From assembly GCF_002159945.1 (NCBI RefSeq), contig NZ_NFJQ01000003.1:124001-188000 (forward strand): a DNA stretch of 64,000 nt, given 5' to 3'. The position numbers were made by a program, and so were the translations under genes. The notes beneath the pieces were generated by a model, which worked only from the letters and a program-made list of their open reading frames with translations, did no database searches and had not been told where the DNA came from. Source of the DNA: Cloacibacillus sp. An23. Its GTDB lineage: Bacteria; Synergistota; Synergistia; Synergistales; Synergistaceae. This document shows positions 16,574 to 19,863 of the stretch, in pieces (the stretch's first letter is position 1; each line of letters starts with the position of its first letter).

Positions 16574-16601
16574 TTGACAAATCGCGGAAAAGCTATACAA
16601 T
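16574..16601 (+). promoter_or_regulatory. Sigma70-type promoter of the 40-codon gene
   Basis: TTGACA at 16574-16579, 16-base spacer, TACAAT at 16596-16601. It is immediately downstream of a terminator, so it is an independent promoter. Confidence 0.7.
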
Positions 16602-16654: not shown

Positions 16655-16777
16655 ATGAGCAATAAATTGGTCTACATAGCCGGGGTACCTTACTGGATGA
16701 CTCCCGAAGGCGGATTCGTCGCCGTGGAGCTCAAGGACGGACTCCCCGTCGAGCACGTAGTCGTGAAGCAGAAGTAG
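16655..16777 (+). CDS. Small protein of 40 residues, function unknown
   Basis: An ATG at 16655 is preceded by AAAAAAGGAGG with 8 bases of spacing, an excellent ribosome site, and has its own promoter and palindrome. The product starts MSNKLVYIAGVPYWMTPEGG and ends VEHVVVKQK. It is neither hydrophobic nor Cys-rich, has no signal peptide, and looks like a tiny β-strand protein. I do not recognise it. The strong upstream signals make it more credible than a chance frame. Confidence 0.6.
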   Translation: MSNKLVYIAGVPYWMTPEGGFVAVELKDGLPVEHVVVKQK

Positions 16778-17184
16778 CGGCAGGCTCGCGGACAAGATTC
16801 ACCGGCGCCGCACGGCGCGAAAAACAAAGCACAGGTTCAGGGTTTACGAAGGGCAAAACCGCTGAACCGTGCCGGGTGAAAATCCCGAAAATCCCACGAT
16901 TCGTTAAAAAATCTGAAATCAGAGCCGTAAGGACGTACAAAGGCGCGCCGCCACGCGCTTGACTACTGTTTCCACTGATTGCGTCTTTCCTTTGCGTCAT
17001 ATTCGCCCGGTTCTCACGCCGCGGCGTTCCCTAAGTGATTGCCCGCGCTGTGCGGAGCTGCCGCATACCGCCATCTGGGGCCGAGGCCGCGTGCTTCGTC
17101 ATTCCCATGTATGCGAGCCGGCCCGGCAAAAGCGGAGCGCGCCGAAGTTTTACAAAATCTTTATGCTTACTTTGCGGCGCATAG
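16778..17184 (+). other. Gene-free structured stretch
   Basis: No frame with a ribosome site is seen in these ~400 bases. A long hairpin lies at 16830-16871: CAC, GGTTCAG and GGTTT pair with AAACC, CTGAACC and GTG. A short CGGG/CCCG hairpin follows at 16873-16887. The rest is featureless up to the promoter at 17185. The hairpins could form the 3' untranslated region of the 40-codon gene's transcript or part of a structured RNA; no known class was recognised. Confidence 0.4.
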
Positions 17185-17213
17185 TTGACAATTCCCGCGC
17201 CTGTCATTACAAT
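17185..17213 (+). promoter_or_regulatory. Sigma70-type promoter of the metNIQ leader
   Basis: TTGACA at 17185-17190, a 17-base spacer and TACAAT at 17208-17213. The start of transcription is expected near 17220, about 24 bases before the leader ATG. Confidence 0.8.
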
Positions 17214-17243
17214 GTCCCCATATTTGAAGAAGGAGGAGCAATC

Positions 17244-17330
17244 ATGAAGCTGAGCGCCATATATTTTGCAAACAACATGATGATGTGCATGTGCTCTGAA
17301 GGCTCCTCTTGTGATTTACCGGGCGCCTAG
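17244..17330 (+). CDS. Met/Cys-rich leader peptide of metNIQ (28 residues)
   Basis: A 28-codon frame whose ATG lies 7 bases after AGGAGG. The codons for residues 12-17 are ATG ATG ATG TGC ATG TGC (MMMCMC), with another Cys at 23. It lies between a consensus promoter and a terminator, directly upstream of a methionine ABC transporter operon, which is the architecture of transcription attenuation by ribosome stalling at Met/Cys codons. A segment inside the leader (AAGGCTC, 17299-17305) is complementary to the 5' arm of the terminator (GGGCCTT, 17359-17365) and can serve as antiterminator when a ribosome stalls upstream. A longer open frame (from 16959) in another phase was rejected. Confidence 0.8.
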   Translation: MKLSAIYFANNMMMCMCSEGSSCDLPGA

Positions 17331-17355
17331 AGCGCCGCGCGCGAGAAATCATAAG

Positions 17356-17384
17356 ACCGGGCCTTTTCAAGGCTCGGTTTTTTT
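17356..17384 (+). terminator. Attenuator terminator upstream of metN
   Basis: ACCGGGCCTT (17356-17365), loop ttc, AAGGCTCGGT (17369-17378), then a run of seven T (17378-17384). One G-T wobble in a 10-bp stem. It lies 39 bases before the metN ATG and after the leader-peptide stop codon, so it must be read through for metNIQ expression. Confidence 0.85.
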
Positions 17385-17422
17385 ATGCACTGAAATCCTT
17401 AAGATAAAAGGACGGGTTTTAT

Positions 17423-18391
17423 ATGATCGAGATTCAGGGATTGGGGAAATATTACGGCGACCACAAGGTCCTCTCCGATATTTCCCTTTCGGTCGGAAAG
17501 GGCGACGTTTTCGGAATCGTCGGCCATTCCGGCGCGGGGAAGTCGACGCTGCTACGCTGTCTCAACGGCCTCGAAGGTTATTCCGAAGGCAGCGTCCGAG
17601 TGAAAGGGCAGGAGGTCAAGGAGCTCGACGACGCGGGGCTGAAGCGGCTGCGCCGCGACATGGGGATGATTTTCCAGAATTTCAACCTCATGAACAGGAA
17701 GAACGTCTTCGAGAACATCATGTTCCCGCTGAAGGTCTGGGGCACGCCGAAGGCCGAGGCCGAGGCGCGCGTGGACGAGCTGCTGGAGCTCGTCGGCCTC
17801 TCGGCGAAGCGCAACGAGAAGGTGCGCAACCTAAGCGGCGGGCAGAAGCAGCGCGTCGGCATAGCGCGCGCGCTGGCGCTGAACCCCGAGATACTGCTCT
17901 GCGACGAGGCGACTTCCGCGCTCGACCCGAAGACGACCATCTCCATCCTCGAGCTGCTGATGGACATCAACAGGAAGCTGAACGTTACGATAATCGCCGT
18001 CACGCATCAGATGGAGGTCGTCAAGATGATCTGCAACAAGGTCATCATCCTCGACGGCGGCCGCGTCGTTGACTCAGGCGACACCGACAAGCTGTTCCTC
18101 GCGCCGGGGCCGGAGCTGCGCAAGCTGATAACCGACGACTACGCCGTCATCCCGCAGGGCACGAACATCCGCCTGATGTTCCCGCGCGAGATAGCGAACG
18201 AGGGCATCGTCGCGAAGATGGCGCGCGAGCTCGACATAGATTTCTCGATAGTCGGCGGGCGCATAGAGAAGTACCGCGACACGGTTATGGGATTCCTCAT
18301 CGTCCACGTCGGAGACGAGGACGTGCCGCGCATAGAAAAATGGCTGAAGGAAAACAAGATGTTCTGGGAGGTAATGGACGATGGCCGCTGA
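17423..18391 (+). CDS. metN: Methionine ABC transporter ATP-binding protein MetN
   Basis: 322 residues. Walker A is GHSGAGKST (34-42), the ABC signature LSGGQKQR (137-144) and Walker B ILLCDE (157-162); TVTHQMEVV-type H-loop follows as AVTHQMEVVK. The C-terminal ~80 residues form the NIL domain that binds methionine in the cytoplasm and inhibits transport, which distinguishes MetN from other amino-acid ATPases. It powers methionine import with MetI and MetQ. It is the first structural gene after the Met/Cys leader and overlaps metI by 11 bases. Confidence 0.95.
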   Translation: MIEIQGLGKYYGDHKVLSDISLSVGKGDVFGIVGHSGAGKSTLLRCLNGLEGYSEGSVRVKGQEVKELDDAGLKRLRRDMGMIFQNFNLMNRKNVFENIMFPLKVWGTPKAEAEARVDELLELVGLSAKRNEKVRNLSGGQKQRVGIARALALNPEILLCDEATSALDPKTTISILELLMDINRKLNVTIIAVTHQMEVVKMICNKVIILDGGRVVDSGDTDKLFLAPGPELRKLITDDYAVIPQGTNIRLMFPREIANEGIVAKMARELDIDFSIVGGRIEKYRDTVMGFLIVHVGDEDVPRIEKWLKENKMFWEVMDDGR

Positions 18392-19016
18392 GCTTCTACG
18401 GGCCCTTTGGGAAACGCTTTATATGGTAATCGTGTCTACTGTGCTGTCGGGCATATTCGGCTCGGGCGTCGCGATACTGATGATAATGACCGGGCCTTCC
18501 GGCCTGCGCCCGAACGCGCCGCTATACCGCGTGCTCGACGTAGTCGTCAACCTTCTGCGCTCCTTCCCGTTCATCATACTGCTTATCGCGATAATCCCGC
18601 TGACGCGCATCATCGTCGGCACGTCGATAGGCAGCACCGCTTCTATAGTGCCGCTCACCATTGCCGCGACGCCATTCGTCGCGCGCCTCATGGAGGGAAG
18701 CCTGCTTGAAGTAGACCGCGGCGTAGTCGAGGCGGCGAAGTCCTTCGGCGCGTCCACGTGGCAGATAATCTGGGGCGTGATGATAAAGGAAGCCATGCCC
18801 TCGATAGTCCTCAACTGGGCCGTCGTCGCGATAAACCTGCTCGGATACTCCGCGATGGCCGGCGTCGTCGGCGGCGGCGGCCTCGGCGACCTTGCGATAA
18901 AATACGGCTACAACCGCTTCCAGACGGACGTGATGATATACTCCGTCGCGATACTGATAGTGGTCGTCCAGGTCATCCAGTGCGTGGGCAACTACGTCTA
19001 CGAGAAGATAAGATAA
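18381..19016 (+). CDS. metI: Methionine ABC transporter permease MetI
   Basis: 211 residues, five or so membrane segments (ETLYMVIVSTVLSGIFGSGVA at TM1) and the EAA loop VVEAAKSFGASTWQIIWGVM contacting MetN. The C-terminal NLLGYSAMAGVVGGGGLGDLAIKYGYNRFQ is the MetI hallmark. The ATG at 18381 lies inside the end of metN, giving coupled translation. Confidence 0.95.
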   Translation: MAAELLRALWETLYMVIVSTVLSGIFGSGVAILMIMTGPSGLRPNAPLYRVLDVVVNLLRSFPFIILLIAIIPLTRIIVGTSIGSTASIVPLTIAATPFVARLMEGSLLEVDRGVVEAAKSFGASTWQIIWGVMIKEAMPSIVLNWAVVAINLLGYSAMAGVVGGGGLGDLAIKYGYNRFQTDVMIYSVAILIVVVQVIQCVGNYVYEKIR

Positions 19017-19077: not shown

Positions 19078-19863
19078 ATGAAGAGATTTTTTGCGGCATT
19101 ACTGGCGGCGGCCCTTCTGATACCCGCGGCGGCCTTCGCGGCGGACGAGAAGGAAATCAGCGTGGGCGTGACGCCCTTCCCGCACAAGGACATCATGGAG
19201 GCGGCGCGCACGAACCTTGAAAAAGAGGGCTACAAGCTCAAGATAGTCGAGTTCACCGACTACGTGACGCCGAACACCGCGCTCGCGGAAGGCGCGATAG
19301 ACGCGAACTTCTTCCAGCACGTGCCATATTTTGAGAACGCGAACAAAGAGCGCGGACTCAAATGCGTCTGGGTCGCCAAGATCCACATCGAGCCGATGGG
19401 CCTCTACTCCGCGAAGGTGAAGAGCGTCGACGAAATCAAAGACGGCGCGCAGATAGCGATACCGAACGACGCGACGAACTGCGCCCGCGCGCTCCGCGTC
19501 CTTGAAAAGGCCGGGCTCATCAAGGTAAAGGAAGGCGAGCTCATCACAGCGAAAGACATCACCGACAATCCGAAGAAGCTCAAGATAAGCGAGATAGACG
19601 CCGCGCAGCTCCCGCGCACGCTGCAGGACGTGACCGCGGCCGTCATCAACACGAACTTCGCGGGCGAAGCGGGCCTCAACCCCGCGAAAGACGCGCTGGT
19701 CATCGAAGACAAGGATTCGCCCTACGCGAACATCCTCGTAGTCCGCGAAGCAGACAAGGACAGCGACAAGACCAAGGCCCTCGTGAAAGCCGTCCAGTCG
19801 CCAGAGGTGAAGAAATTCATCGAGACCGAGCTAGTCCCGAAGGGCATAGTCCCAGCGTTCTAA
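19078..19863 (+). CDS. metQ: Methionine-binding protein MetQ (NlpA family)
   Basis: 261 residues. A signal peptide (about 1-21, cleavage after AAAFA) precedes an NlpA/MetQ domain beginning ISVGVTPFPHKDIMEAA with the usual GYKLKIVEFTDYVTPN and FFQHVPYF. Most MetQ proteins in didermic bacteria are lipoproteins; here the signal sequence has no Cys at the cleavage region, so a soluble periplasmic form is predicted. AAAGGAGGAG lies 9 bases before the ATG. It is separated from metI by 61 bases and followed by a strong terminator. Confidence 0.93.
   Translation: MKRFFAALLAAALLIPAAAFAADEKEISVGVTPFPHKDIMEAARTNLEKEGYKLKIVEFTDYVTPNTALAEGAIDANFFQHVPYFENANKERGLKCVWVAKIHIEPMGLYSAKVKSVDEIKDGAQIAIPNDATNCARALRVLEKAGLIKVKEGELITAKDITDNPKKLKISEIDAAQLPRTLQDVTAAVINTNFAGEAGLNPAKDALVIEDKDSPYANILVVREADKDSDKTKALVKAVQSPEVKKFIETELVPKGIVPAF

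Follow-up and report, generated by a model that had tools for sequence, protein, structure and literature searches.

Given that the metNIQ operon of Cloacibacillus sp. An23 is preceded by a short reading frame with a run of Met and Cys codons and by a terminator, the question is whether these elements form a ribosome-mediated attenuator, as the original prediction held, and whether such a switch is restricted to this operon. The window, that is, the whole stretch of 64,000 nucleotides analysed, contains the promoter, ideal ribosome site, 28-codon frame and terminator previously described before metN, all of them where they had been placed and all on the + strand. The sigma-70-type promoter (17185-17213) consists of TTGACA (17185-17190) and TACAAT (17208-17213) separated by a 17-nt spacer, and most relatives have this promoter in the equivalent position. 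It is followed by the leader Shine-Dalgarno (SD) sequence AAGGAGGAGC (17230-17239) and by the leader ORF (17244-17330; ATG at 17244, TAG at 17328-17330), whose 28 codons encode MKLSAIYFANNMMMCMCSEGSSCDLPGA. Codons 12 to 17 of this frame read M-M-M-C-M-C (17277-17294). Among the relatives compared, ATG ATG ATG TGC (MMMC, 17277-17288) is invariant and the ATG TGC that follows (17289-17294) differs. The intrinsic terminator (17355-17384) has ten pairs with covariation, its stem GACCGGGCCTT..AAGGCTCGGTT (17355-17379) being followed by T7. The operon behind it comprises metN (methionine ABC transporter ATPase with a C-terminal NIL domain; 17423-18391, ATG at 17423), metI (permease; 18381-19016) and metQ (substrate-binding protein; 19078-19863).

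Alternative pairings can be drawn for this leader. Arm 1, GGAGGAGC (17232-17239), is part of the leader's own SD, a point that the original prediction overlooked, and pairs with GGCTCCTC (17301-17308) of arm 2 with a computed energy of -16.3 kcal/mol. Arm 2, AAGGCTCCTCT (17299-17309), has two possible partners, namely the SD, as an anti-antiterminator, or the terminator 5' arm, as an antiterminator. The latter partner, arm 3 (GGGCCTT, 17359-17365), comprises the terminator 5' arm and the loop edge, and its pairing with arm 2 was seen both in the swap test described below and in the A1 pair counts. Between arms 2 and 3 lies the P2 hairpin (TGATTT..AAATCA, 17312-17351), which contains the leader stop codon and, inside the antiterminator, brings the two arms together; when folded without the 3' terminator arm, the arm 2-P2-arm 3 hairpin reaches approximately -34 kcal/mol.

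The strength of these pairings was assessed with a swap test, in which the pairing energies of own and swapped partners were compared over 79 non-redundant leaders of all specificities with 1000 permutations. Own partners were stronger for 1:2 (z = -7.0), 2:3 (z = -11.9) and 3:4 (z = -24.8), and 0 of 1000 permutations equalled the observed value in each case. The control pairings, arm 2 with the terminator 3' arm and arm 1 with arm 3, were null in this test, and reversed-segment controls gave z = -2.0 and -1.1; genome relatedness may inflate such own-versus-swapped energies, which the near-null controls limit but do not remove. The compensatory changes expected of the arms were thus present over the 79 leaders (2:3 and 1:2) but weak in the 17 Met leaders alone, where 63 of 500 shuffles reached the 2:3 covariation score and arm 1:2 barely varied, because these sequences are close to one another. 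The AAGGCTC:GGGCCTT antiterminator put forward originally is borne out by its conservation, its fixed spacing and the 2:3 swap-test result. The proposal that ACCGGGC (17318-17324) competes for the terminator 3' arm had to be abandoned, since this segment is not conserved even within the family; it sits in the P2 hairpin.

The conservation of the leader was then examined among close metN loci (MetN 67-100% identity, same family). The leader was kept at 17 of these 19 loci and was absent from two close metN genes, L016 and L019. MMMC was invariant in all 17 leaders, as expected of the Met/Cys run, and the residues behind it varied (M, A, I or G, then C, Y, S and others). The spacing was fixed, the first Met codon lying 24 nt from GGCTCCTC in 16 leaders and 21 nt in the remaining one. 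Of the named relatives, Candidatus Caccocola faecipullorum is the closest to have the element (genome G001, of the same genus; its MetN is 94% identical). When 84,980 species were scanned for the exact pattern, 66 stretches were returned, of which the true leaders with a terminator all belonged to Synergistota; none of the approximately 35 matches outside this phylum had both a leader and a terminator. In addition, 198 of 200 dinucleotide shuffles folded less well than the leader region. Collectively, the shuffle folding, the conservation at 17 of 19 loci and the restriction of true matches to Synergistota confirm, as far as sequence can, that the metN leader is a conserved RNA switch rather than a chance arrangement.

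The metNIQ leader therefore combines what is looked for in an attenuator, that is, a short ORF with an SD, a matching codon run, a terminator and competing, covarying pairings. We consider it very probable that it is a ribosome-mediated transcription attenuator through which metNIQ is transcribed when charged tRNA-Met and, secondarily, charged tRNA-Cys are scarce. The invariant MMMC, the spacing, the covariation and the Met-specific genes downstream of such leaders elsewhere all support this core reading of the original prediction. Stalling, its kinetics and the response to starvation are inferred to proceed as follows. A ribosome would load onto the leader SD once it has been transcribed. If it stalled with MMMC in the A site, its front edge would stop just short of arm 2 and the ribosome would keep arm 1 away from arm 2; the freed arm 2 could then pair with arm 3 around P2, the terminator would be blocked and metNIQ would be read. 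A ribosome reaching the stop codon would cover the 5' strand of P2, so that arm 2 would re-pair with the SD and the terminator would form, and the closed SD would halt further rounds of leader translation. If no ribosome loaded, arms 1 and 2 would pair first and termination would follow. Judged by the usual footprint of a ribosome, stalling any further along than MMMC would no longer leave arm 2 free.

A covariance model built from the metN leaders (R1) was used to search 188 Synergistota genomes and matched in 90 of them. Reading of the R1 loci revealed other codon runs within the same context of frame and terminator, and the idea of a family restricted to metNIQ was rejected, as other genes also carry such leaders. 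Met/Cys leaders were found upstream of metNIQ, metQ, metQNI, metY, metX and metA; Val/Ile/Leu leaders upstream of ilvC (mostly behind ilvN or ilvB), leuA, leuC and ilvE; Ile leaders upstream of ilvA (threonine deaminase) and a PorA-like 2-oxoacid oxidoreductase operon; and Phe/Tyr(/Trp) leaders upstream of paaK and transporters. Single cases suggest a Thr/Met leader before aspartokinase (L257) and a Ser/Gly/Cys leader before a class-V aminotransferase (L261). With the downstream genes named from NCBIfam and Pfam, the sensor codons agreed with the amino acid expected for the gene in 98 of 103 cases, against a shuffled mean of 46 and maximum of 60; the PorA-like operon class was assigned after its leaders had been seen, and agreement without its ten cases was 88 of 93. 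The SD, the anti-SD (which encodes G-S-S/P-P), P2 and the terminator form a framework common to the members, in which the sensor codons differ. Met/Cys attenuation had been called unusual; it is indeed rare for a methionine importer, but it is not isolated, being a member of a modular family that extends across the phylum.

A second covariance model (R2) matched at E<1e-6 in 32 of 37 Synergistales genomes from ten families. Outside Synergistales, R2 also gave branched-chain leaders ending in GSPPGVIGV or GSPPGRIGA and a stop before ilvN-ilvB in another Synergistota family. On 35 genomes from other phyla, chosen via named loci, R2 gave no match below 1e-6 (best, 4.8e-6). Matches between approximately 1e-7 and 1e-2 were not accepted by score alone, and one of them (G044:C1:1788699, 2.2e-7, before argG) was rejected as the end of a T-box. 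Some members suggest functions for the genes that they precede. A 420-aa protein (L101:710-1969, + strand; also L109 and L266) lies under MMMC- or MMC-bearing leaders, which suggests a role in Met/Cys metabolism; the protein had no Pfam, NCBIfam or PDB match. Membrane proteins at L250, L142 and L288 lie under aromatic or mixed aromatic/Ile leaders, whose codons suggest aromatic amino-acid transport; the one searched, that of L250, had no Pfam or NCBIfam match. A leader with an AAAA run (MSRRGPFLLAAAAMCGGPPGGAGAP) precedes an aminotransferase-like gene at L271 (G049:C1:2943229) and is possibly an alanine version.

The An23 genome itself has five convincing members by the R2 search, on which this list rests. 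Besides that of metNIQ in the window, they are a leader before metQ (C1:143201), a VVVVII leader before ilvN-ilvC (C3:63566), an IIIIII leader before a 2-oxoacid oxidoreductase (C5:55887) and FYFYYSYAY, an aromatic leader in front of a membrane transporter (C7:76623). A further R2 match, C11:43222 (L222), was dropped for want of a convincing leader. Two other elements of the window were observed upstream of the leader. The 125-nt intergenic stretch at 16793-16917 is 87% identical to an unlinked place in a sister genome (G001:C286, L328), had no Rfam match and looks like a structured RNA. A short ORF of 40 aa, MSNKLVYIAGVPYWMTPEGGFVAVELKDGLPVEHVVVKQK, lies at 16655-16777 behind its own near-consensus promoter (16574-16601).

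The family bears on what the leader senses. Met alone may be sensed, with the Cys codon serving geometry or a longer stall; this is a tenable alternative, albeit one that we regard as somewhat doubtful. It is in line with the CGC (Arg) codon that follows MMM in some metQ leaders (7 cases) and with the lack of conservation of Cys codons past MMMC, but TGC follows ATGATGATG in 49 of the 59 Met leaders having that run and many leaders contain further Cys. Considerably less probable is that the leader acts as a TnaC-like nascent-chain arrest peptide sensing free ligand rather than the level of charged tRNA. The invariant MMMC and the leader C-terminus G-S-S/P-P..G-A, conserved in the family, could be read in this way; however, the family keeps this C-terminus while swapping the upstream residues to suit the regulated pathway, the C-terminal residues are accounted for by RNA pairing, and those past MMMC vary freely.

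Since SAM-I riboswitches and T-boxes are present in Synergistota, it was also considered whether the metNIQ leader could be a ligand-binding riboswitch (for SAM or another ligand) or a T-box, its short ORF being accidental. Covariance-model searches found no SAM-I riboswitch (RF00162) in the window or the whole genome and no T-box (RF00230) in the window; the seven T-boxes of the genome all lie away from the leader. Neither the metNIQ leader nor the other family members had a gathering-score match in Rfam, and the ORF stays in frame with pathway-specific codons. A riboswitch, T-box or other Rfam family at this leader was therefore rejected as very improbable. An ordinary constitutive terminator behind a meaningless ORF, common as simple terminators are, is hardly credible for a leader with a promoter of its own, an ORF that is conserved and an alternative pairing that covaries, and no result here favours it.

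In other Synergistota, eight loci have a SAM-I riboswitch whose end lies approximately 50-90 nt upstream of an attenuator on the same strand (L129:325-646, L140:301-670, L128 and L120 in genomes G153, G041, G048 and G091; also in G056, G058 and G185). The four loci inspected, L120, L128, L129 and L140, have the order promoter, SAM-I, terminator, Met/Cys leader and second terminator, and L128 and L129 leave no room for another promoter. This arrangement suggests a gate that would stay shut unless both SAM and charged tRNA were low. For the family as a whole, we modestly favour the reading that one homologous framework has had its sensor cassette repeatedly exchanged (Met/Cys, Ile, Val/Leu, Phe/Tyr, perhaps Thr or Ser/Gly), that about one ribosome translates the leader per transcript, the leader closing its own SD, and that in some lineages it stands in series behind SAM-I as a two-input gate for SAM and charged tRNA. 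The framework may have reached its several specificities by common descent or by convergence.

Leader-peptide attenuators are usually viewed as inventions of single operons with little common sequence. If the reading of one exchangeable framework is true, a single framework serving many amino acids would be the equivalent of the T-box among ribosome-based switches, the leader codons would provide a rule for predicting the specificity of uncharacterised transporters and enzymes, and the evolution of codon-sensor exchange would become testable. Likewise, the tandem SAM riboswitch and attenuator leaders would represent a new kind of two-input RNA control.

A search of open-access main texts found no account of attenuators in Synergistota. 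A structured-RNA survey including Thermovirga lienii presents for that genome one candidate riboswitch together with motifs of mobile or repeat type, and its main text contains no attenuator family (PMC6429828). Met/Cys leaders before metNIQ have already been proposed once, in Streptomyces: metL of S. lividans, a leader of 29 residues that includes Cys and Met codons (..CMCRRMC..), precedes metNIQ and is a proposed attenuator, but its transcript is leaderless, a typical terminator was not found, an MMM run is lacking and its sequence is unrelated (PMC8079986). The uORFC-8-2 motif, a Cys leader before cysS in Rhodobacterales, likewise has a terminator behind a leader ORF that contains Cys codons, but with a single specificity, in another phylum and with another structure (PMC8632094). 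The ilvBNC attenuator of C. glutamicum similarly has three hairpins, a terminator, an antiterminator and an anti-antiterminator, but in another phylum and sequence, and an SD-based arm is not described in the portions of that report consulted (PMC11857589). The his attenuator has been described as well (PMC9413887).

T-box and SAM-I elements also act by transcription attenuation, in response to charged tRNA or Met status; the metNIQ leader, in contrast, has no aptamer or tRNA-binding motif, and its sensing would require a ribosome. The classical attenuators of Proteobacteria (trp, his, leu, thr and ilv) have a short leader in which the regulated amino acid occurs in runs, an antiterminator opposed to a terminator, and coupling to translation, and the logic of leader and competing hairpins is common to them and the Synergistota family. 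In trp-type attenuators arm 1 lies within the coding region, with the control codons, whereas in the Synergistota family arm 1 is the leader's own SD, many specificities share one sequence framework and a Met/Cys specificity occurs. The mechanism is hence of a known kind, and the family and its architecture seem new; it is a variant on account of its SD-based arm, a common framework in which sensor codons can be exchanged, its Met/Cys specificity and the tandem arrangement with SAM-I.
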